Shown here in pieces: positions 27,619-54,100 of a stretch of 64,000 bases of DNA. The position numbers were made by a program, and so were the translations under genes. A model generated the notes under the pieces. The model worked only from the letters and a program-made list of their open reading frames with translations, ran no database searches and was not told the origin of the DNA. This stretch comes from Talaromyces rugulosus. Its lineage: Eukaryota > Ascomycota > Eurotiomycetes > Eurotiales > Trichocomaceae. The first letter of the stretch is position 1. Every line of letters starts with the position of its first letter. Location of the stretch: assembly GCF_013368755.1 (NCBI RefSeq), contig NC_049563.1, forward strand, positions 434,001-498,000. Direction: 5' to 3'.

Positions 27619-30408
27619 CTACTTCACATGCAACCGCTTAAGCAACAACCGCAAAAGGAAGTTATCCACCCCAGTTTGTTTCTCCAAGACATCCAATTCC
27701 TTATGCAGTCGTGCATGAAGACGATCCAGCATCTCCTTGGTGTATTGCAAGCTCTTTGTCTCTTCCAGATGGTCAAGAACTAGCTTCTTAGTTTCAAAAG
27801 ACATCTTACCCATGGTCTTGCGCTGGTGGAGTATGCTCTGGAGCCTGATGTTGGGGCTCGTGGTCAAGCAGTGGATCAAAGGCAGGGAGAATTTGCCTTC
27901 ATCGAGATCTTCGCAGAAGCCTTTTTGATCCGTGTACTAATTACCTAGTAGTTAGCACACATGATAAAACCATACTAGAGCCGATGTTAGGAACTGTACC
28001 TCTTTGGACATTAGGTTCTGGTAATCATCTCGTATTTGGAAGTATCGTCCAAATAATGTGGTCAAGGTCAATACACCAGGAACCCTAAACCATGCGATCA
28101 GTAACCAATACACATAGATGAAAACTACAAAATTAACTAACTTTCTCTTGCTTTTGGGAGATTTTGCGGCCATGAGCTTGGCCACCATCTGGAACAAGCC
28201 GCCGGTTTCTGCATCGGGTTAGGGTTTAAACCATTTCTCTACTAAGAACAGAAACACGTACTGTAGTCAACCATTTTGTAATACTCCTCAAACGTGGGAC
28301 ACCGAACATTGGAAGTCCAGAATAGATCCAGACTTTGACCAATGTGTAACTTCTTCAACTCGCCTATTTGTACAGAATTGAGTTTTATCTCTGACCAGTG
28401 GATGATGGAGGCCACTTACTAATGAATACATCCAGGCAAGCCGGGTTCTCTAGCTTTCGGATGGTGTCCAAAGACATCACAAACAGGTTGTTGGCTGAAT
28501 TTATCGTCTGTGGAACTCCATAGATCATGTGTGTGCTTGGATTCCCTCGGCGCAGTGGCGAGTTATCCTCGATATCATCTAGCCTGATACAAGGTCAGCT
28601 TGAGCGAAAATTCGGGTCAAGATCAATGAGGTCGTACATTAGAGATGCGTTATGTAGCTGGTCAATGGCATCTTTGATCATCGTCAAATCTGCCTCTGGC
28701 ACACTGAACCAGATGTTCAAAGCGTCGATTGCATGGTGTCGAATCTTCTTTGAAGGCAGTGAACTGACATATTGAAATGGTGCCAGGACGACCTTTGCAG
28801 TACACTCATTTAGCCATATTCTGGATACAGAGAGAAAGAACAAAGAGTTTTATTACCTGGTTCGTCATTTCCGGCAAATTGGTTTCTAGGACTGGACTGA
28901 CAAAGGTCTTCTTCGATCGAGTAGTCATACCGCTGCTCCCAAAGTTCAAAAACGCAGAAGGAACATCGTCTTCTACGTCGACAACCGTTGATTCAGGGCT
29001 ATCTTTCATAGCAATTCCAGAGTCATCGCTCTTGGCACCATCATCGTCAATATTTTGAACTTGCCTCCACTTTTCTGGCTTGTGAAAGTGGTATCGTTCA
29101 CTATACTGACTCCACACGACGTTCCCACTGATACTGAATTCCAATGCAGACAGATAGCGGAGCGTGTCGGTTGAAACTTTGTCTGCAGACTGAAGCTCGA
29201 ACTCGCGTTTACGTCGCCCGTATTCTTCGCATGACTCGCGAATTTTGTCCTGGCAAATTACTTTTGCTTGTTCCAGGTCGACCGAGTGTTCTTTCATAAT
29301 AATCCAGACGGCGTTTGCCATGTTCTCGGACGTGGGATTGCCCTGAAATTCAACATATTCTTTCTCCCAGGAGAAAAAGTCATTTGCCAGGGCGAGGGTG
29401 GCGTAAGCAGGCTCGGTAATGGGCTTTGTCAGTTCCATTTCTTTATTGCTGACTGTGAGACCCATGGCAAATGTGATGATACCGAACCAAAAACTATTCG
29501 AATGTTATCAATCTATCCCAAAAACTATCAATATACAGCTTAGTCTGAACTTACGTCTGGCCGAGGTTCACAACACGATGAGGAAGATACTCGTCTAGTG
29601 TTTGGAAATCAAAGTGCTGACTTCCGCTTTCGCCTTTCACTAAGCCTTCCCAAGACTTTAGTAGAACCATTGCCTGTGGCTCATTGATCTCGAGCAATTC
29701 CAGAATCAGCTTAGCCTGCATCTGAGACTTTCCCGAGGCAGACATTTTAACATTGCGTGAAGGCTCCAGGACGCTTTCGAATCCTCTAGCCATTTCGTTG
29801 TTCTCCTCTTCGCCCTATAGATATAATATTAGTGCCAAGTTACGGAAATTCTTTAGAGCTGCTCAACATACATCTTCTTTTCCAACTGTATCCAGAATGT
29901 CTATCAATGAATCAGCGGACCGTCTTTTTTTGCTCTTGATAAAATGAAGAAATGAGTTACCATCGTGAAGAAAGGCAAATTCGTTTGCATAAGTCACAGC
30001 TTCCAACCGCTCTGGGATACACTCCGGAATGGCAACTGCAATGCCGTTAAACCTTGGACTAAGGCAGCCGGTAAAGTCACGGATTGGGCCAACAAGTCTC
30101 TTCCAGTCTTCCTGGGCCCGTCGAGCGCCCTTGTCTGCAAGGTGTGCATGCTTGTGCACTCGTAGTGGGAGTCCACCGCAGAGGCCTAGGTCGTTATAGG
30201 TTGATGGGTCTACCAATTTGGAGTGACGATGCTGCAACCATGAATTTGGGGCCCCGTCAGACCCCAGCTTTGCCTGAAGCTTTTCAAGTTTTCCATGCTC
30301 GGTTATAATGGATGGGCTGGTAATAAACGAAAACAAGCTTCGTGCCCGGCTCATGAATGAGATAAAGAAAATACGAAGGTAAAGAAAGAATAACTCTAGA
30401 GAAGCCAT
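27619..30408 (-). CDS. Bifunctional terpene synthase: class I cyclase fused to polyprenyl diphosphate synthase
   Basis: Chimeric di-/sesterterpene synthase of 754 residues from ten exons: 30408-29961, 29900-29872, 29814-29555, 29493-28857, 28792-28638, 28583-28420, 28363-28262, 28208-28142, 28084-28000, 27936-27619. The cyclase half has PECIPERLEAVTYANEFAFL, then DDILD (149-153, the DDxxD metal motif) and the NSE triad in NDFFSWEKE (N283, S287, E291). After a linker rich in Asp/Ser, the prenyltransferase half has FQYVSSLPSKKIRHHAIDAL, the first Asp-rich motif DDIED (512-516), KTGGLFQMVAKLMA, and the second in FQIRDDYQNL (640-641), then KGFCEDLDEGKFSLPLIH. In this family the C-terminal half builds GGPP or GFPP, which the N-terminal half cyclises. 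An N-terminal extension of about 55 residues starts with a hydrophobic stretch. It is divergent from the P450 genes. All catalytic motifs are intact; chain length and product cannot be read from sequence. Confidence 0.93.
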
Positions 30409-31467
30409 TGTTGCAGGCTAGAAGGACAGGTTGCTAGCACTGAAAAGTGACAAATGGAGACGGGCGTGCGGAGTATGAAGGTTCTGAAAGGATGGAGTTT
30501 TCGTTGACATATATTCTAGGTCAAGTAATATAGTTTAAGGATCTAGTTAATCGCTCACCGAGCATTACGGTCGCTTTCGAGGGTGGTGTACCGTGTAGCT
30601 GAAACTAGGCCAAACATATTTTATTACAGAATCAGCGCTCGTATTACGAGACACAGATATTGGTGTGTCCAATTCCTAGACTGTTGGCCGACAGAAGTTG
30701 CTGTTGATCATGGTATCATAGCTTTCTATTTGCTTACGATTATCTGTGATTGGCTTATAGACCGGTATCCACGGCAGCTCTTGCTGAGGGGCTGCTCAAT
30801 TACCCACGGGAGTAACTTATTTCTGACTACATTAATATCTGATTTCAAAACTGGCCGTTCGTTTGATTTTTTGGGCAGTACGCAGTTGGGTTAGTCGGAG
30901 GCCGTGTCTATCTTCTGACTAGGGGGACTCGGGAGCGGTTTAAACTAAACACCACTAACGTAAAGTTGTAGTTAATTGCCTGTTTATTATACGAAGCTCC
31001 GTATATTGCGGCACAAGATAAGAAAATTCTAGAAAACATTGGCTCTAGAGGGCGTTTTAGTGATTACAGATAGATTGTGACGGGTCCACTAGTGGGATTA
31101 AGGAATTACGGTCATTACGTTACCGTACACTAGCCTTAGAATTACCCGATTTGGTAATACTTTCGTCGATGTTGGGTCTGGGTGCTGGACAAATAGATTC
31201 AGCTTTAAATGATTAAAATATTATTCAACACATAACGATATGCTTACTCTGTAATAATAGTCGAAAACCAGCAAAGCACAGTCCTCGGTCAGCGAGTGAG
31301 TCCCAAGCTAGTATTTGACAAGAATCTTGAATATCCCCCGCCCCCTCCTCCAGCGTTTCTCTTCTCAACTTATGTTGCTTTAAAATTTGAAGCTGGATAG
31401 TTTGAAAGCATTTTCCTCAATTCTAGAATAATTTATCACTGTATTTTTGTTGAGAAATTATTTCACC
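30409..31467. promoter_or_regulatory. Divergent intergenic region of the terpene cluster
   Basis: A 1.06 kb AT-rich spacer between the terpene synthase and the first P450, probably a bidirectional promoter. It contains a perfect palindrome CCACTAGTGG (31086-31095) and an inverted repeat TACGGT/ACCGTA (31107-31112 and 31122-31127, nine-base gap). ATTACGGTC occurs at both ends of the region (about 30563 and 31105). A pathway regulator could use these, but none is encoded in the window. Confidence 0.4.
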
Positions 31468-33292
31468 ATGATCGACTCTCTGTCGTATACCACCATGCCG
31501 GTGGTCCTGTTCGCAGGCCTGGTTCTGTACCAACTGCTAGCCTTCACATACAGGCTTTTCTTTAGCCCCCTCGCAAAGTTTCCGGGACAAAAGATTGCGG
31601 GAATGACACATTGGTAGTGATACTCTTTAATTCTGCTTATAGGCTACGTTAACAACCGCTAACTTTGCATGCTAGGTATGAGTTCTACCATGATGTCATA
31701 CGCCGTGGCCAATACACCTTTCATATCCGGGACATGCATAAGAAATACGGACCTATCCTGCGCATCAATCCGTACGAGCTACACATATCCGATCCCGGTT
31801 TCTACAACGAGATCTATGCGGTGCAAAACCGGCGCCGGGACCGCTGGGAATGGTCTACGAGACCGGGTGGTTTCGGTGGTTCAGTTGGTGGAACAAACCC
31901 ACACGAGTTACACCGTAGGCGAAGGGCTGCGTTGAATCCATTCTTCTCTAGGGCCAATATTCGGAAGCTCCAACATGAGATTGATCAAAAGGCCGTGCAG
32001 CTAGTAGAGAGACTAGAGAAAGAAAAGGACCGGGTCATCAAAGTCAATCATGCATTTGCCGCTCTCACAAATGGTAATATATGAATATCTAATTAGGTGT
32101 GGTTTTGGTTATTAACGATATTCTCTTGGATAGATATCGTGATGCAGTATTCTTTCGGTCGAGACGATAACCGTGCTGCTCATAAAGGCAAGTTTTTTTT
32201 TTTTTTTTTTTTTTTTTTAATTCCTTGTATGAGCTTTATGTTGACAGCCTCTAGATTTCGATCCCTCATTCCATGATAATTTTGTTGCCGGAGTATCGTG
32301 CCTGAATCTTCTTCGCCACGTATTTATACTAGATCGAGCAGCCAGGGCGCTGCCAATGGAAATTCTCAGTAAGATCTCGAATGTTGTTGCTATGTTCTGG
32401 CAAGAGAAACAGGTATATTTCCACAAGCTCATTGGATACTGCATTTTTTCTTTTTTTACTGACGCATGGGCAGTCTATTACCGAGGAGGTTAGGCAAATT
32501 CTCAACGGAACCAACAAAGCTTATAAAGAGCGCCCTAATCGGACCATCTACCATGGAATCTTAGAAAGTAAATTGCCCCCGGAGGAAAAGGAACTCAACC
32601 GACTGGCTGAAGAAGCCCAGATCACAATCGGAGCCGGTACGCTGGCCACTGCCTGGGTGATGTCGGTTGGAATGTACCATCTGCTGGCACCAGGCTCTGT
32701 CTCGATGTTGAAGACTTTGCGCGAAGAACTCCAACGCGCAATTCCCAATCCCAGTGAACCCATCGATTTGGCTGCACTGGAGAAATTGCCTTATCTTACG
32801 GGTGTGGTCAAAGAGTGTCTGCGTCTTGGAAACGGCACAACAACGAGACTGCAGCGCATCGCTCCTGATGAAACCCTGATTTACACAGATCCCAACACCG
32901 GAAAAGTATGGGACATCCCTCCCGGTACTCCAGTGAGCTTGTCATCGCTGCATATTCATCACGATGAAACAATTTTCACCGACCCAGAGTCGTTCCGTCC
33001 TGAGCGATGGATCGAGAACCCAGATCTTGACCGGTTCCTCTTGACCTTCTCTAAAGGAAGTCGCCAGTGCCTCGGTATTCACTTGGCTTACGCCGAGATG
33101 TATATCGTTTTAGCCCGGGTTTTTCGGCTCTACGGCCGAAAGGAAGAAGGCCCATCTAAGGGCACGTCCGACAAGCTAGGCAACCTAGAGTTGTTCCAAA
33201 CTGAATTACGGGATACTGTCTGTGTTGCTGACCTGGTGGTACCTGCAGTGTGGGAGGGATCCCAAGGTATCCGACTCAAAGTCACTGAGTAG
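31468..33292 (+). CDS. Cytochrome P450 A of the terpene cluster
   Basis: Microsomal monooxygenase of 524 residues from five exons: 31468-31613, 31676-32073, 32134-32187, 32255-32412, 32474-33292. An N-terminal membrane anchor is followed by FFSPLAKFPGQKIAG. The remaining landmarks are the oxygen-binding helix IGAGTLATAW (about 304-313), the ExxR motif ECLR (366-369), PERW, and the haem loop FSKGSRQCLG with Cys451. The style (KYGPILRINPYELHISDP) resembles the trichodiene-oxygenase-like P450s common in fungal terpene clusters, but substrate is unknown. Intron 3 (32188-32254) has a GC donor (AG/GCAAGT) and a run of 26 T; the acceptor CTCTAG is the one that restores the family sequence DFDPSFHD. 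Complete and probably functional; expected to oxidise the terpene scaffold. Confidence 0.9.
32193..32218 (+). repeat. T26 homopolymer inside P450 A intron 3
   Basis: Uninterrupted 26-base T run immediately after the GC-type donor. It is prone to length variation. Confidence 0.9.
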
Positions 33293-33814
33293 TTGTGTGT
33301 ATCTTATGTAGCCTAGACGTGGTTTACATTTAGAACTCTTTTAACTGGTCAATTCTACTCTCATGGTCCCAGGACCCACGTCGATTATTGTGGATGTTTA
33401 AAATACGTAGTCTTTCCCACTATTTCAACTGCTTACACAATACACATGCGGCGTATTTTACGTCTCGTCTACGTATTATTTCTTGACTAGATAGGTAATA
33501 ACATGATTAAGCAATATTATTTACCAACTAGTAGATGCGCGGTTTCTTCTTTGCTGAGGGGCTGAAACGCCCTCGGTCAGGATAAGCTACTAAACAACGC
33601 TACTTACGAGCTACGGGCTCCTTGTAACACTCATGTATGCCGGGGCGATTACCTGAAGGGGATATGGATAAGCCCACGGGTGAGATTTGCAGATGAAATT
33701 CCTGAGCGACTCTGCTCACTGGTCTGTATATATCAGTTGATTTTGTATTCTCTCACAACTTCCTTGATTTCCTCTTTTTATTTGTGTAGTGAGACCCATA
33801 AGACAAACCTTCTG
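33293..33814. other. Spacer between the two P450 genes
   Basis: A 522-base AT-rich spacer that must hold the 3' end of P450 A and the promoter of P450 B. No distinct motif or gene is seen. A frame from 33680 runs in phase into exon 1 of P450 B, but its N-terminus is not P450-like. Confidence 0.4.
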
Positions 33815-35467
33815 ATGGAGCAGAGGGAAATCATCCTACTTGGCCTGGCAGCTTTGGTAGAAATTCACCAAGCATTAAGTGATAATAAATAATCTGACTT
33901 ATCAGGACAGGCTGCAACATACCAAGTCATTGTTTGGATTTACAACGCCTGGTTCCATCCGCTATCGGGCTACCCAGGCCCCAAACTATTCGGGGCATCA
34001 TACCTCCCTGGTCTATATCACCGGATTCAAGGCGACTATGTCCTTGTCCATACAGCGCTTCACGAGCGTTTTGGTGAGGTTATTCGGGTGAGCCCAAATG
34101 AACTGTCGTATATCAATCCCCAGGCATGGAAAGATATCACCGGACAAGGCTCAGGCCGTCAGGATATGGAGAAAGACCCTCTATCATTCGGACGACCCAT
34201 GCCGAACGCACCCAGTATCTTCAATGCCCATAGAACAGACCATTCTCGGATCCGTCGGACCATGTCCCATGCGTTTTCTGCATCTGCACTTCGGAGACAG
34301 GAATCGTTGATCCAGAGCCATGTGAAGATGATGATCCAGTGTCTTAATGAGCACAACGAGGAGGTGATTGATATGGTGTCTTGGTACAACTTCACCACCT
34401 TTGATATGTTTGGCGACCTTGCTTTTGGCGAGTCATTTGGCTGTCTGACCAATTCACTATACCACCCATGGGTAAAAATGCTTATAATGAGCATGAAGGC
34501 AGGGTACTTCATCATTCAAGCTCAGAAATACCCCATTTTTGAAAAAGTTCTCATGTCCTTTATCCCGCGCATGATGCGTCAACGCCGACGTGATCATTTA
34601 GCCTTGACGCAGGCGAAGCTTGCGAAACGAATGGCAAAGCCGGAAGAGCGACCCGACTTTCTCAGTTTCATATTGAGACACCAGGATGAAGCGACTGGAA
34701 TGTCGCTTCCAGAACTAGAGATAAATGCGAGTACACTCATTGTAGCTGGTTCAGAGACCACTGCTACCCTGCTATCCGGATGCACGTACTACTTGCTACG
34801 CAATCCTCGCGTGATGGAAAAGCTTTTGCATGAAGTCCGAACCACTTTTAAATCGGAGGACGAGATTGATATTACCAGCGTTAACGGCTTGAAGTATATG
34901 TTGGCCGTCCTGGATGAAGCATTGCGTGTGTACCCCCCGGCTCCAGGCAACTTTCATCGCCTTGTGCCTAAAGAGGGCTCGGTGATTTGCGAGAAATTTG
35001 TACCCGGTGAGGTAAGTAATCAACAGTATCTTCTATTATCTGACTGCATTTATTAATATATATTACAGACACAGGTATCTGTGTGTCATTACGCAGCTTA
35101 TCGCTCACCATGCAACTTTCATCAACCGGATGAGTTCATTCCTGAGCGATTCCTTGGCGACTCTAAATTTGAAAACGACCGCAGGGACGTTCTTCAGCCA
35201 TTTGGCACTGGATCGAGAGCCTGTCTGGGGCGAAAGTAAGTGGAAGATATCAAGAGCTATCTATCCTGTGAGTTAACTAACCCGGCATTTAATAGTCTCG
35301 CATACTTTGAAATGCGTCTCCTCCTGGCACATGTGCTCTGGAATTTTGACTTGGAGCTCATGCCACGAAGTGAAAAGTGGGCCAATCAAAAAGTATTTGC
35401 TATATGGGACAAGCCTGAGTTGTATGTGAAGCTCAAGCCAAGGGCTGAGTTGGGGGTAAGTGCTTAA
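33815..35467 (+). CDS. Cytochrome P450 B of the terpene cluster
   Basis: Microsomal P450 of 493 residues from four exons: 33815-33856, 33911-35011, 35069-35235, 35296-35467. The anchor MEQREIILLGLAALAATYQV comes only when the acceptor at 33910 (AGGACAG) is used; the nearer TATCAG gives the wrong frame. The rest shows WFHPLSGYPGPK, the oxygen-binding helix VAGSETTATLL, the ExxR motif EALR, PERF, and the haem loop FGTGSRACLG with Cys433. RVSPNELSYINPQAWKDI and the general pattern resemble the CYP65-type (isotrichodermin C-15 hydroxylase-like) group; this is a judgement of likeness, not a computed assignment. It lies in tandem with P450 A and upstream of the acyltransferase, all on the + strand. 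Confidence 0.9.
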
Positions 35468-36959
35468 ATCGAGGTACATGTGGAATAGAACAGGGCCGTA
35501 CTCATCAAGGACACCTGCACCTGTATATAATACTGTGGGCGGAACGTGGGATTATACTTCAATGTTAGCACTGAGAGCACCGCCAGCTGTCGATGAGTCA
35601 AGTATAACTACTCATTGGTATGTAAAACATGTCCAGTACGTATCCAGTAGTCAGCGCTTCGTAGTTAAAACATTACTCTACATTTACACTAAAGCCTTGT
35701 ATACCTCTTCATCTGCTCTCACATGGAACTAGCAACAATTACCTTCCTTCTCGTCTAAAATTATCATTTCAATTAAGTTTTACAGTTTCAGGGCAGAATC
35801 AGAAATGTCAAACCTGAGACTCTAAGTTGCCTGTATGGCATAGAGTGAGTGCCTTTGAATAATACAGATTTTTAAGAATGCTCGATAGCAAATTATTTAA
35901 TTAGGTCGTTCTCACAATCCAAGATCACATTTCTAGCTCAAAACCATTATACATTATTTTTCATACATTAGGGTTTTGAGCAATCTTACAGGCCCTCGAT
36001 ACTAGTGTATTTTACAGCCACGCGACCAGCCGATAAATTACCAGTTGATGCTTCGGTCGACCAATAATTCCAACATCATTTCGCAATAGACTAGAAAATG
36101 ACTAGGCCAATAAGGAAATAAATCGGTCAATTTAGATTTAGGCGAGCAACTACTTGGTCCTCGTAGTCTCGGAGCTTTTAAGGGATGACAAAGAATAGGT
36201 AAAGTGATAGCTATACGAACTATGCATAAAACCTATTTTCTTACATTACCTAAGATAGAATATGGATAAGAGTTCTCTAGTGCTAGTATCAATTACTAGT
36301 GTCTCACTTTCGTTTAGTGCTATCGACTTTATGTCATGGAACGATGAGATTACCCGCCCACGATTCTAGCGTGATTCTAGTATGCTTACTTAGTAAGACT
36401 CAAAGATGGGCCATCACCTAACTTCCTGTGGCCTAGATCTTATATCATCTTCATGGGAGGACACACTATGATGTGATTTTCTCATAAGAGACCCAATGGG
36501 CGAATGGTTTTTGGTTGTCAAAGTAATCAATACAACTCATGTGGCATGCCGGTGGCCCGCATATAGCTGCAAAACCTCGTACCCTGCTAGAAAGATAACA
36601 AGAACAGCCGTAGTCAAAGTTTCAAGACAGTTAGTAGTTGTAACAAAACATATTTGTTGGTTTCCCGCGCTTCGTTTTACTTGAATCATAGAATGCTCGT
36701 TCGGTCAGCGACTCTGCATGTGGTATCGGCATAAAATCATCCCGAGCAGCTTGATTCCCAACTTCTCGGCTTATTTTTCTGTATTTTCAATGGCCCGTTA
36801 TTCTGCAAGTTTATCACGCAAATTAATCGTTTCGCCGAGTCCATTACTGGTACAAAGTTGGGGTATACCATCCGCAGACATCATTCCTTCCATTAATCCG
36901 CGTGAGATAGCCACTTGGTAATCTGCCAAAACTCTTGGCCTCAAAAAATAAGGATCATA
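35468..36959. other. AT-rich spacer between P450 B and the acyltransferase
   Basis: A 1.5 kb AT-rich spacer with no intact gene. On the minus strand, about 36798-36950 translates into a protein-like segment that ends at a stop and could be a gene remnant; see findings. The remainder shows nothing recognisable. Confidence 0.45.
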
Positions 36960-38423
36960 ATGGTGACAAAAACATACACAGTTGGTCCGCACAATCCCTT
37001 TGAGGCCCAATACCCTCTTTCATCGTGCGATCTCCAGGTGCCGCCTGTCTTCACCTGTAAAGCTTTCATATATTCCACCAATGGGAATCTATCTGCTTCC
37101 TCCCCGGAGGCGCAGGGTCTTGTCTCACGTTTGCAAGATAGTCTCGTATCTTTTTTACAGCCAATTAGCCCCGGAGTGTTGGCATATCCACAAATCCTCG
37201 GCCAAATTGTCAAGCCCGTAGACGGGGGTCGGCCTTGCATCGCTGTCAAGAAGTCATTTTCTATTCAGTTCAAAGTGGTTGAAATGCCTGATATAGAATT
37301 CAGTAGCTTGCATCACAATGGCCGCTTTTCAGTAGACGCCATCAACATAGCCGGCTTCAGGGATGGGCTTGATCGCGCGAGTTTGATGAACTTGCCAGAG
37401 GTCTCGCACAACTTTACCTTCCAGCTCACTTTTATCAATGGTGGGTTTGTTCTTTTGGCCCAGGTCGCTCATCAAATTACCGATGCCTCTGGATTCGCGG
37501 GTTTTATACGACACTGGTTCCAGAGAGCCCGAGATGGGTCTTCAACCTATTCTCAAGTGGAGAGCAATCCACAAGTCTCTCTAGCTATGCATGATAAATC
37601 TAGACTTTGCCAAGAAGATATACAAGGTGATACCGATGCTCTGAGAAAATTAGAGCTGGCATATAAAGATGTACCGACAGTCAAAAGGCCTGTGGCGATA
37701 GGAAATGGCGAGCGAGTTGCTAAAATATTCTGGGTATCTGCTCAGAGTCTCAAGGACTTGAGAACAACATTGCAAGCAGAATCAGCAAACCAACCTACAA
37801 GTTTCCAAGCAGTCGTAGCACTATTATGGAGATGCATTATCCGCACGCGGCTAACACCTGAAAACAATACCCCATCTACGATGAGTAAAGGTTTTTTGGT
37901 CACGAATATGAGTCAACGTTTAAGTCCGCCACTACCAAAAGACTTCTTCGGCAACTCTGCAACCTGGGTTTTCGCTGAAATTCCTCAGTCAGCCCTGTTG
38001 GAGGAAAAGAGGCATGCCTCGGCTATCAATGCAATTCAAAAGACGCTGCAGGAAGATACGACTGAGCTTAGTCTACAGTTGGCCAACCAATTCATTTCAC
38101 GTCAAATGCAGGTTGGCGTGTATCCACCCATGGATCTGACAGGTAACGACGTTTTATTTAACTCGTGGGAGCATTTCTACCCGGATTTGGTGGATTTGGA
38201 TATTGGGCTAGGCAGCTTTTGCACTATGCGGCGTCTGACTGACTCTATTGTTCCCTCCTTGGTGCTTATTCTCCCCTCTTACGGGAGGAGATCACATGGA
38301 CCGGAGGATAAGAATCCATGCCAGTATCCCGGTGGTATTGAAGTGCAGGTCCACTTGTTTGCGAACCAAATGGAACTTTTGCAGAAGGATCCAGAATGGC
38401 TGCACTACGCCAGCACTATTTGA
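36960..38423 (+). CDS. BAHD-type acyltransferase of the terpene cluster
   Basis: Intronless gene for 487 residues, acyl-CoA-dependent O-acyltransferase of the fungal BAHD/trichothecene acetyltransferase type. The catalytic motif HxxxD is HQITD (171-175), in FVLLAQVAHQITDASGFAGF. The second family motif DFGWG appears as the degenerate DIGLGSF near the C-terminus, followed by the typical end region VQVHLFANQMELLQKDPEW. No signal peptide, so cytosolic. It would esterify a hydroxyl introduced by the P450s; acyl donor and position are unknown. The start ATG at 36960 is preferred; the frame extends a further 15 codons upstream only to a TTG. It ends the co-oriented run of three tailoring genes. Confidence 0.88.
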   Translation: MVTKTYTVGPHNPFEAQYPLSSCDLQVPPVFTCKAFIYSTNGNLSASSPEAQGLVSRLQDSLVSFLQPISPGVLAYPQILGQIVKPVDGGRPCIAVKKSFSIQFKVVEMPDIEFSSLHHNGRFSVDAINIAGFRDGLDRASLMNLPEVSHNFTFQLTFINGGFVLLAQVAHQITDASGFAGFIRHWFQRARDGSSTYSQVESNPQVSLAMHDKSRLCQEDIQGDTDALRKLELAYKDVPTVKRPVAIGNGERVAKIFWVSAQSLKDLRTTLQAESANQPTSFQAVVALLWRCIIRTRLTPENNTPSTMSKGFLVTNMSQRLSPPLPKDFFGNSATWVFAEIPQSALLEEKRHASAINAIQKTLQEDTTELSLQLANQFISRQMQVGVYPPMDLTGNDVLFNSWEHFYPDLVDLDIGLGSFCTMRRLTDSIVPSLVLILPSYGRRSHGPEDKNPCQYPGGIEVQVHLFANQMELLQKDPEWLHYASTI

Positions 38424-38970: not shown

Positions 38971-41061
38971 TCAATGATTATGTCTTGGCTCATCCCAGCG
39001 CTGAGCCACTCGTTGGAACTTGATAGCGTCTCGAAGGACCATGCCTTCACTAAGCTGATCGGTCTCCTTTCGGAACATTTCTTGCCATGGGGTGTGGCTT
39101 TCCGGTCCATGGTACCCGCCTTTGCTTTCCAGCTCGTCCCGTCGTTTCTTCAACTCTTCGTCCGAGATTAAAATGTCCACTCGGCGCTTTCTGAGATCTA
39201 CCCTGACTTTATCACCATCCCGCAGCAAACCGAGATTTCCGCCGGCGGCGGCTTCGGGGCTCGCGTTCAAGATCGAGGGAGAACCGGAGGTTCCTGATTG
39301 TCTGCCATCGCCAATGCAAGGAAGAGAGTGGACGCCTTTCTTCAGCAGCCGGCCTGGTGGGTGCATATTGACCACCTCGGCGGCACCTGGGTAACCCAGA
39401 GGACCGGTACCGCGGATCACAAGGAGCGTTCTCTCGTCAATCGGGGTTGATTCATCTTCAATTCGGTTATGATAATCCTCAGGTCCATCAAAGACAACGA
39501 CTGGTCCCTCAAAAGCATCAGGGTCCTCTGGATTCTCCATAAAGTTCTTTCGAAACTCCTCCGAGATAACAGACGTCTTCATAATTGCCGAGTCAAATAA
39601 ACTGCCTTGCAAATGACGGAACCCAGCATCAACCAACAACGGGTTCTTATACTCTCGAATCACTCGACGATCCCAAGAGTGTTTTCCCCGAACGTTATCT
39701 GCCACCGTTTGTCCCGTGCAGGTGAGTACATCGGCACGTAGCTTTCCAGCATCAAGCAATTCGGCCATGATGGCAGGAAGACCGCCGGCACGGTAATATT
39801 CTTCTCCCAGGTATTCGCCGGCTGGCTGCATGTTGAGTAGAAGTGGCGTATCAAACCCAACTTGATCCCAATCCTCGATGGTTAGGCTAACTCCCATGTG
39901 CTTCGCGATGGCGGTGACGTGAATGGGGGCATTTGTACTTCCTCCGATGGCAGAATTAACCACAATAGCGTTCTCGAAGGCTCCCCGGGTCATGATATCG
40001 CTCGGCTTTCTATCCGTCAAGACCATCTCGACGATATGCTTTCCGGTCTCGTAAGCGCATTGCGCGCGCTCTCGATAGGGTGCCGGGATAGCTGCGGAAC
40101 CAGGAAGGGCCATTCCCAAGGCTTCTGCGAGTGCGTTCATGGTGGATGCCGTTCCCATGGTGTTGCAGTGACCGGCCGAGGGAGCTCTGTATGAAATTAG
40201 TCCTTTGCGTCTCTTGAGGGGTTTTGTTCTTGTTTTCGGCTTACCCCTTCGACACGTAGTCGATAAATTGGTCGTGATTCATTTCTCCCGCAGACAGCAT
40301 TTCACGACCTTTCCAGACGACCATTCCGGAGCCAGCCAGCTCCTCTTTAACGTAACCGTTCAGCATGGGGCCGACATTGAGACATAAGGAAGGGATATTC
40401 TAGTTATGTACCATTTGCCTTAGCAGAGTTCTGAATGGACCCAGTCCGGAGAAGAAATGCTTACCATAGTGGCCGCTGCCATCAAGCATGCAGGTGTTGT
40501 CTTGTCACATCCAGTCAAAAGAACCACACCATCCAAAGGATAGGCATATAGAATTTCGACAAGACCCAGGTAGGCAAAATTCCTGTCCAGGCAAGCCGTC
40601 GGTCGTCGAGACGATTCCTGGATTGGGTGAATAGGAAATTCAAAAGCAATGCCGCCGGCAGACCGAATCCCTTCTCGAATTCGCTTGGACAGCTCCAAAT
40701 GATATCTATTACAAGGGACTAGATCCGAGCCCGATTGGGCGATTCCTATAATTGGCTTCCCCGACGTCAACTCCTCCCTCGTGATACCGTAGTTCAAATA
40801 TCGCTCAAGATAGATTGCCCCCATCTCCGGTTTGACATTTTTACCAAACCACTTTCGGGAACGCAGTTCACGACTTGGTGAGCTTTCCTTTTCTCTCGAT
40901 ACTCCATCGACCTTGAGCGAGGCGAGCTTGCTCTCCAGTTGCTGGGTTCGCCTTCGCAATGCGAGCAGCTCCTCCTGGCAGTCCTCGATGTTGATGGGTT
41001 TCTTGTTTTCCTGGCTACTGCAAGAGCAGCCCTCGCAACTGGTTTGAGAATCGCAGGCCAT
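38971..41061 (-). CDS. IlvD/Edd-family Fe-S dehydratase, closer to sugar-acid dehydratases
   Basis: Three exons (41061-40465, 40399-40245, 40186-38971) give 655 residues. Iron-sulfur enzymes of this family remove water from 2,3-dihydroxy acids. Three cysteines sit where the [2Fe-2S] ligands fall: C117 in [11 protein letters not shown]185 in TGCDKTTPA and C258 in [46 protein letters not shown] and [11 protein letters not shown] look like L-arabinonate/D-xylonate dehydratases, not branched-chain DHAD (Ilv3). The C-terminus is complete ([20 protein letters not shown]). The first 60 residues are extra: a Cys-rich start ([14 protein letters not shown]) and a probable coiled coil. No mitochondrial presequence is obvious. 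Next to the terpene cluster; membership uncertain. Function could be pentonate catabolism or a cluster-linked role. Confidence 0.85.
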
Positions 41062-41163
41062 TTTGAGAAATTGTCCAGTGTTTCAAGGGTATGGATGGGT
41101 ATGCCTGAAGACAGGGCAAGTCAAGTACTTTTCTGGACAAAATAAACCCAAGGGTCAGAATAA

Positions 41164-51173: not shown

Positions 51174-54100
51174 CTAAAAACCAAACAAATTATTATCCTC
51201 CTCATACCCCCAATCTTTCAAAACAGGCAATGCTATTTTCTGAATCATCATCGGTGGACCGCAAAGGAGCGCCACATTGTTCCTATCCGGCTCAAAGGCA
51301 TGTTGTTTGATTATATCCTCAGTAATATGGCCCTTTTCACCCTTCCAGTTCTCACTGGCGTGAGAGAGCACATGCACAATCGCAAATTGGTCCGCGTGGT
51401 TCTTCGCAAACTGGTCAAAATCGCCGCTCATCAGGATATCGGCTTCGGACTTGTTTGTGTCGATCACTTTGATCTTTGTGTTGTCTTCTTGGTCTTCGAG
51501 AATTCGAGCAATTATTTGATAACCCGGAGTGACACCTGATCCACCGAGGATTAGGGAAACGTTGTTGAATCTGTGCTCTCTTCCGTCAATGACAAAGCGG
51601 CCACCCCCCTGGTATTGGATATCTCCTGCAGGACCCTTGACTTCGATTTCCTCGCCATGCCGAAGACAGTCCAGGATGTTGCTCATGGTACCACCGGGTT
51701 GGGTTGTATCTGGGTAATACGTTTTAACTACTAGGTCGAAGCTGCCGTCATCTTCGCTTTCCATGACTGGTCGTACTGGAGTGTAAGGACGGACGACCAG
51801 GCGGTCTTGGAAATGAAATCCAACCTGGATGTGTTGGCCAGTTCCGAGCCCTAGTTTCGTAGTCGGTGGCGGGAGTCCGAATGTGTAAAGATTGGTATCT
51901 TCAGACAGTTTTGCCTTGTTGAGAAGTCTAGCTTGAATCCACCTGGAGTTCGACTGTCAGCATTTACTACGGACAACTTTAGGCTTTGAGACTCTACTTG
52001 TACTTATCCAAGGCGGCTTCGGGGTCGTGTTTGACTTGCGATCTTTCCTGCTTCTTTTGCTCGGCGTCTTTTGTCATATAGTCCATTGCTCTTTGCGTAA
52101 CCTTTCCGATAATACATTCTATACGATGTCAGAACATGCAACTCTCGTGGACTTTTTTGAGAGAAAAAAATAACATGTAAAGAAACAATGAACTGACGTT
52201 TCAGCTGTCCCAGAGCGTAATCGTCGTGGATACCCTCAAATTCATCCGTTGTCTCCATATGCACGATACCAGCATGCGCCATAATAGCCCCTTTCCCACC
52301 GGGATGCCAACTGAGGACACTAGTAGCATCGTATACATTGCCATTGACGACGATCCAGCAATCATCCTCATTGCCATGCTTCTCAACCTCCTGTCGAGTG
52401 AATTGCTTTTCGGGAGCTGATACCTTGCGTTTGACTTCTTCGATCCTTTCTTCGGTGGACTCTTCCATCCAGCCATTCTTGCCATTTCCAGCATCTACTG
52501 GGTGGCGGAAAAGCAGGTATGCTTCCTCATTTTGCGGATCGTCGAACACTTCAGGTTTCACTTCATACCAGCAGTTGTTCATCATTCTGTGTTGTAGGCA
52601 ACTCAGTAATAGATTAGAAAAGGTGTAAATCGATGCGCTCACCCTTCTATATTCCACACAGGCTTTGGAGGCTGCGTGTTTTTATGCACATCAAAAGCAC
52701 GAACAATAATACTTTGTGCACGAATAAGCTTGGTGATGTCCAAATCGATGTGCCAATGCAACCAAGTCCAGAATTTTAGGCTATGCCGAATGGGCGCATC
52801 GGGATACTACTCAAAAGCACTCAACATATACACATAAAATACAAGTAAACGTGAAACGTACCTTGCGAACACAGTACAGCCAATGTTCTCCACCATCCAG
52901 GCTGATTTCCACCTTGTCGATTTCATCTCCGCTTCCGTTGTAGGCATATCCGGTAATTCGATACATCTTACCCTTTTTCACATCCACCAGATCAATCTTT
53001 TCCCCCTGCGCCGGCCTTGCAATGACAGAATTCAGCATCTGCTCGTTACAGATGGTACTGTGGTGGCGAAACATGGTTTGCGCAATGTCAGAGCTGGTAT
53101 CGGTGATGAAACTGGGCAGCTGCCGGTTATCGTAGATGTGATAGTGACTACCATTCTCATGGTCAGAAATCCAAACCCGCGCGAGCCATTTGACAGATCG
53201 CGCGCCCACCCAGCCGGGAAGAATCAAGCGCAGGGGGTATCCATGATCTGGTGGAATAGGGTGGTCATTCATCTGGTATGCGAGCATCACATCGTTGTTT
53301 CGGTCCATTGCATAATCGAGGGGGATGCAGGTTTCATATTTCCCTTCAGTGAGTGTGTCTGCGCCTTCGAAATTGACCCAGAACTGTTTTTCGGGATTCT
53401 TCTCCACGAGCTGCGTAACGCCTGCGAACATGAGGACATCGCAGAGTAAGACCCCTCGCCAGTAAGAGCAACCACTAGCAGCAGCAGTGAAATTAAACCC
53501 CCTGGTTTTCATGATCATGTTAAGCTCTTTCCGGCGATTTCCGTCACAAGCCATGAATACGGGTATATTGACGCTCTCGAATTGCTTCTGCAGATCGTCC
53601 ATGCCAAAAACCAAGTATTTGTCCGCTACCACCTCTAGTTTGTGGTTTTCCCAGAGCAGATGTGGCACAGCGCCGTGGTTGCGGACGTAGTGTATCGGCG
53701 AAGGTGTGATAAGGCCAGCTTCAAAAAGCGTGGTCAGGTTGGCTTCAGCATTCATAGGATGTTTTCCTGTCAGACGGATCAATTTATCGCTGCGAGGAAC
53801 CCAGCTGTCGGGGCTGAACTGGTCTGCTTCGTCGATTTTCTCGGGAAGACGCTCATTTTGAATTGGACAGCGACCCCTGCCATCATCCGTTTGCATTAAT
53901 GAGCGATATTCTTGCTCATGTCGTAGGTATTGTAGGAGTGCTTCTTCTTCTGGTGAGCTTGCTGGCTTGGAATTTGCATTGTCGTTTCGTTCTTCGTCCT
54001 CTCCGCTGCCTTTTTTCTTCTGCTCATTTTCTTTTTGTTTCTGTTTCTCACCGCCTGGTCTCTTTATATTTTCCTGTTCCCTCTGCTCCTTTTCCTCTGC

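Follow-up and report, generated by a model that had tools for sequence, protein, structure and literature searches.

The window analysed here is a 64,000-nucleotide stretch of Talaromyces rugulosus (C3:434001-498000 in a scanned genome of 35,758,560 bases on six contigs), and it holds four neighbouring genes for which models were built from the raw sequence. A chimeric terpene cyclase/polyprenyl diphosphate synthase (terpene synthase, TS) is divergent from a co-oriented run of two cytochrome P450s (P450A and P450B) and an acyltransferase, an arrangement that a preliminary description of the locus had already reported and that is borne out by the complete models of all four genes, whose outer edges, 27619 and 38423, are those of the TS and acyltransferase stop codons (Table 1). 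We consider it fairly likely that the four genes together form a compact and intact cluster for a single terpenoid. Metal-binding or catalytic motifs can be read in every model, in agreement with the earlier claim that they are intact, the second motif of the acyltransferase reading DIGLG. Fifteen of the 16 modelled introns, of 53 to 64 bases, are of the GT-AG type; the exception, P450A intron 3 (window 32188-32254, + strand), is GC-AG, has 67 bases and adjoins a long T run. The GC content of the genes is 0.452-0.477 and that of the gaps between them 0.403-0.416, compared with 0.502 and 0.496 in the flanks.

Table 1. Features of the putative terpenoid gene cluster, in positions of the window
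Feature	Position	Strand	Description
TS, chimeric terpene cyclase/polyprenyl diphosphate synthase	27619..30408	-	10 exons, 754 amino acids; spliced model, Pfam
Putative TS N-terminal extension with hydrophobic stretch	30232..30408	-	66 residues before DPSTY anchor
Divergent TS/P450A intergenic region	30409..31467		GC 0.415; bounded by gene models
Candidate promoter word TCGGTCAGCGA	31285..31295	+	183 bases upstream of P450A start; exact second copy at 36701
P450A	31468..33292	+	5 exons, 524 amino acids; PF00067; N-terminal hydrophobic stretch
Candidate promoter word AGCGACTCTGC	33705..33715	+	110 bases upstream of P450B start; exact second copy at 36707
P450B	33815..35467	+	4 exons, 493 amino acids; PF00067; N-terminal hydrophobic stretch
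TCGGTCAGCGACTCTGC	36701..36717	+	259 bases upstream of acyltransferase start; holds both words, overlapping
Acyltransferase, PF02458 (BAHD-type)	36960..38423	+	single exon, 487 amino acids

The TS protein matches PF19086 at 143-335 (3.6e-23) and PF00348 at 458-690 (1.1e-58). Its cyclase half has the class I motifs DDILD and NDFFSWEKE, and the prenyltransferase half has two Asp-rich motifs, DDIED and RDDYQ, the latter found together with DDIEDNSPLRRG among the motifs of the spliced model. DDILD is visible only once the first intron (60 bases) is removed, the unspliced reading being DGNS. The closest solved structures are astellifadiene synthase (E 8.6e-161) and fusicoccadiene synthase (E 3.7e-160), and by its sequence TS is a member of the known fungal prenyltransferase-terpene synthase (PTTS) family. 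It shares with PaFS, EvAS, EvSS and TvTS the order of a cyclase followed by a prenyltransferase half and all four metal-binding motifs, and differs from them in its separate four-member branch and its predicted N-terminal hydrophobic extension.

The protein database searched was clustered at 90%, and the match lists of TS and P450A included no multi-exon protein from the genome to which the window belongs. For TS, 56 proteins matched among 5371 candidates, headed by T. pinophilus P0001 (68% identity over 98% of the query), two T. marneffei proteins (P0003, 68% over 78%; P0004, 66% over 61%) and a protein of Coleophoma cylindrospora (55% over 92%), while no other match exceeded 53% where about 40% was covered, or 43% across most of the length. 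Some of the public models look flawed: P0003 and P0004 end just past RDDYQNL, as if read into an intron, and P0001 has an extra stretch ahead of FWFG that resembles an unspliced intron. A tree of 50 rows was built from TS, 47 of the 56 matches, EvAS and EvSS; nine matches (fragments, near-duplicates and a tagged copy) were omitted; P0003, although truncated, and P0056, although distant, stayed in. TS groups with the T. pinophilus and T. marneffei proteins (support 100/100), and Coleophoma joins next (100/99). This branch is separate from those of fusicoccadiene synthase and of astellifadiene/stellatatriene synthase, and from talaropentaene synthase (TvTS); the fork that links it to TvTS and to the PaFS and EvAS/EvSS branches has a support of just 82/63. 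A comparison with characterised synthases, which the preliminary description had proposed, thus places TS with none of those included, and its branch has no tested member in the comparison set. In the cluster, this branch of a versatile enzyme family is accompanied by two P450s and possibly also an acyltransferase. Elsewhere in the genome, a second, divergent chimeric-synthase-like gene lies on contig C2 at about 4.502-4.504 Mb (L037:4198-5940); its prenyltransferase stretches are 30-34% identical to TS, a short piece 45% and a cyclase stretch 26%, and stop codons in the matched frames may be introns.

Within the branch, the TS cyclase domain shows identities of 84, 82 and 67%, as against at most 44% outside, and the prenyltransferase domain 72, 70 and 59%, as against at most 55%. 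Of the two halves, the cyclase is thus the more conserved within the branch, a pattern suggesting that the member enzymes form the same skeleton or similar ones, and conservation of this strength is as expected of a working enzyme. It is quite unlikely that the skeleton is a known one, fusicoccadiene or talaro-7,13-diene, even though PaFS is among the closest solved structures and Talaromyces wortmannii has the talaro-7,13-diene synthase TadA (PMC9551204). TS falls outside the 10-row PaFS branch (100/100), and its cyclase domain is 42% identical to that of PaFS. At one site the two known enzymes differ, TadA having Tyr91 where PaFS has His (PMC9551204). Residue 91 of PaFS is the His before DDVTD, and TS likewise has a His before DDILD; if, as it appears, the residue numbering of TadA and PaFS coincides, this speaks for likeness to PaFS and against likeness to TadA.

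The cyclase stretch of TS scores 277 bits with PaFS (5er8), 259 with TvTS (7vta) and 170 with FgGS, but 102 with sesterfisherol synthase and 92 with PbSS. PTTSs have been divided into Clade I, with type A cyclisation, and Clade II, with type B (PMC8307374), and PaFS is described as following a C1,11-C10,14 route (PMC9551204). If that route is equated with type B, as we infer, TS probably cyclises in the type B (C1-III-IV) mode, to which we lean because the scores with PaFS, TvTS and FgGS are higher than those with sesterfisherol synthase and PbSS; the 50-row tree included no enzyme known to us as Clade I. We take PaFS to be a Clade II enzyme, and the clade labels of the other scored enzymes are likewise assumed.

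Both P450s match PF00067, P450A at 5.3e-47 with the motifs ECLR and FSKGSRQCLG and P450B at 3.1e-65 with EALR and FGTGSRACLG. Among the best 120 of 1000 matches, P450A is closest to a protein of T. marneffei (72%), followed by one of Coleophoma crateriformis (65%) and one of Oidiodendron (53%). In a quick tree built from P450A and the 43 top entries of those 120 (P0082-P0124; 44 rows in all), these four form one group with an SH-aLRT of 100, or 82 for the three-row set without Oidiodendron, and stand apart from the Aspergillus, Paecilomyces and T. atroroseus P450s. Both Coleophoma and Oidiodendron belong to the Leotiomycetes, and the grouping of the window and T. marneffei P450s with these rather than with other Eurotiales may reflect transfer between distant fungi. 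The closest relatives outside Talaromyces are from Coleophoma for TS and, among the matches listed, for P450A as well. Because both genes reach in this way from Talaromyces to Coleophoma, they may have been inherited as a pair, by co-transfer or by shared retention.

The acyltransferase matches PF02458 (1.4e-26) and has the motifs HQITD and DIGLG, so that by sequence it carries the features of the BAHD superfamily, PF02458 and HxxxD. The search scored the 7996 candidates sharing most words and returned 25 matches, the query itself included. Across the 25 aligned sequences H171 is invariant, D175 nearly so, and G416 and G418 are invariant. The second motif of BAHD enzymes is DFGWG; at DIGLG in the window protein, the two glycines are the only residues invariant across the rows. 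The best of 11 matches to solved sequences is coumarin synthase (2.2e-09), the others being BAHD-kind acyltransferases and ENHANCED PSEUDOMONAS SUSCEPTIBILITY 1, and the predicted structure has a mean pLDDT of 84.1 and a pTM of 0.87. Its membership in the pathway is plausible. The gene lies on the strand of the P450s, in the same AT-rich stretch, and the region ahead of it has one exact 11-base word in common with the TS/P450A region and another in common with P450B. These words, TCGGTCAGCGA and AGCGACTCTGC, occur twice each in the window, and 15 and 18 times genome-wide, where backwards-read controls occur 20 and 12 times. The combined pattern, spotted by eye before testing, was reached by 40 of 3000 shuffles and by 117 of 3000 real window triples outside the cluster. 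We take the shared words as a weak hint of co-regulation.

Several observations weigh against a single four-gene pathway or limit what can be said of it. The sequence of TS does not tell the chain length, the prenyltransferase half being 52% identical to TvTS, 51% to EvAS, 49% to EvSS and 45% to PaFS. The Coleophoma matches of TS and P450A come from two different species, and a P450A partner to the T. pinophilus synthase was not found among the best 120 of 1000 matches. A general test for shared promoter words showed no excess, 36 to 60 of 60 dinucleotide shuffles reaching the observed value at four word lengths. The named relatives of the acyltransferase, moreover, are from species other than the holders of close TS and P450A relatives: T. 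islandicus has a protein at 85%, T. verruculosus at 65% and Thozetella at 52%, others stand at 88, 67 and 63%, and the remainder at 45% or less, among them T. stipitatus at 44% and T. pinophilus at just 42%. Neither T. marneffei nor Coleophoma appears among the species-named acyltransferases of the 25 matches. The synthase-like and the acyltransferase-like proteins of Thozetella lie on contigs that differ in length (382,317 and 304,894 bases).

It follows that the preliminary description, which had proposed a four-gene pathway to an oxidised, acylated terpenoid, stands as to the intact genes and motifs and is unsettled as to one pathway. An appreciable chance, though short of even, goes to a pathway of TS and the two P450s, with the acyltransferase an adjacent gene that functions in another process or was present at the locus beforehand. 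The distribution of its relatives fits this account, as does the 1.5-kb gap between P450B and the acyltransferase; its strand, its AT-rich surroundings and the shared words do not. A T. islandicus TS may also have gone unseen, given the clustering of the database at 90% and the absence of own-genome multi-exon proteins from the lists. We continue to prefer a single cluster, with the acyltransferase as a plausible member.

In the scheme to which this reading leads, with its chain length, cyclisation mode, step order, product and cellular site inferred, the C-terminal half of TS would build geranylgeranyl or geranylfarnesyl diphosphate (or a longer chain), and the N-terminal class I cyclase half would ionise the prenyl diphosphate with Mg2+. 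Ring closure of type B, like that of fusicoccadiene synthase, would then yield a polycyclic di- or sesterterpene, which P450A and P450B would oxidise at the endoplasmic reticulum (ER). The acyltransferase, if a member of the pathway, would cap a hydroxyl with an acyl group from an acyl-CoA.

The N-terminal extension of TS raises the idea that the synthases of this branch, although of a type that is otherwise soluble, carry an ER membrane anchor beside the P450s and hand over the hydrocarbon at the membrane, the skeleton being one not described so far. We regard this as doubtful; the anchor, if real, would illustrate one means by which fungal terpene pathways link the synthase with membrane P450s, and would be useful in engineering. 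The extension was compared in 51 of the 56 relatives, the models of the other five being without that end. The stretch ahead of the DPSTY anchor counts 73 residues in T. pinophilus P0001, 29 in a His-tagged PaFS entry and 8 to 24 in the others, so that P0001 is the one relative of the 51 with a long natural lead. The hydropathy maximum (KD19) is 1.73 in the first 19 residues of TS, 1.82 in P450A, 2.21 in P450B and 1.26 in P0001. The TS and P0001 extensions resemble each other more than shuffles do (28 of 5000 as good), and 5.1% of the sequences obtained by mononucleotide shuffling of the extension DNA remained free of stops.

A search for a spliced 5' exon that allowed GT donors, intron lengths of 45-260 bases and an upstream distance of up to 500 bases yielded no model. 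With the limits widened to GT or GC donors, intron lengths of 40-400 bases and an upstream distance of up to 900 bases, 50 in-frame models came from 1335 combinations, 10 with a GT and 40 with a GC donor. Six of the 10 GT models remove 22 bases of the domain; the four that retain it share a single start at 30617 and a weak donor, GTTTCA, with introns of 326-374 bases as against 53-67 in the modelled genes, and no GT-donor alternative of the usual intron length retains the domain start. Thirty of the 40 GC models retain it. Because these four GT and 30 GC alternatives keep the domain start, the extension is possibly an artefact. Also against it, P0001 seems to retain an unspliced intron, the T. 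marneffei P0003 model has the usual start position, and leader DNA rich in pyrimidines translates by itself to hydrophobic residues.

The preliminary description had stated that no transcription factor or transporter is encoded in the window, and this holds for the part scanned, without the scan being exhaustive. No Zn2Cys6 match lay inside the window with 150 of 570 candidates scored (149 matches), and no transcription-factor or transporter family was found in the 10 flanking frames tested, other frames, other families and short exons falling outside the scan. A bacterial-type promoter scan of the divergent region, a type not relevant to a fungus, was at chance level. The lack of a transcription factor among the candidates and frames tested would suit a silent or decaying cluster, with intact frames and no expression. 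We hold this to be unlikely: the reading frames, splice sites and motifs are all intact, conservation of the cyclase is strong, and many fungal clusters rely on distant regulators.

The tested flank genes are housekeeping-type by their Pfam matches. To the left are frames for PDS5, a pseudouridine synthase, a 4HBT thioesterase and one without a match; to the right are an IlvD/Edd dehydratase, DnaJ, a class I tRNA synthetase, JAB/CSN5, an FAD/NAD reductase domain (FAD_binding_6 and NAD_binding_1 at 51177-51956, about 13 kb from the cluster) and RasGEF. Self-resistance of the aspterric-acid type consists in a copy of dihydroxyacid dehydratase (DHAD) within a terpene cluster, and the IlvD/Edd gene (38971-41082, - strand) was considered as such a copy and rejected. 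Its closest solved protein is galactonate dehydratase (1.2e-167), solved entries named dihydroxyacid dehydratase matching at 1.1e-89 or weaker, and ILVD_EDD_N matches occur at four further places in the genome. The gene is treated, for these two reasons, as a putative sugar-acid dehydratase outside the cluster.

The suggestion in the preliminary description that the product may be new is upheld in part. TS groups with none of the characterised synthases included, and no description of the cluster was found, by title or start of abstract, among the open-licence papers listed, but the gene plan is already established. The synthases of the tad and fusaproliferin clusters are both chimeric. The tad cluster of T. 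wortmannii (TadA and the P450 TadB; PMC9551204) is likewise from Talaromyces and has a PaFS-like synthase adjoining a P450, but it comprises two genes without an acyltransferase, as against four in the window. The fusaproliferin FUP cluster of Fusarium proliferatum (PMC8310001) has a terpenoid synthase, two P450s and an acetyltransferase in common with it by gene content; it also has an FAD-oxidase, whereas none was present among the Pfam-tested frames of the cluster and flanks, where small frames were only partly covered. The brassicicene clusters (PMC5006380) combine a fusicoccadiene-type synthase with P450s and, in the Alternaria version, an acetyltransferase, but have a dioxygenase, an O-methyltransferase and more P450s besides. 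The talaronoids are another case of a terpene synthase with tailoring enzymes (PMC11669671). A terpene synthase with one P450, as in tad, and a terpenoid synthase with two P450s, an FAD-oxidase and an acetyltransferase, as in fusaproliferin, are established plans, and beside them the window has a real cluster of ordinary type, plausibly for an oxidised, possibly acylated, ring-shaped terpene.

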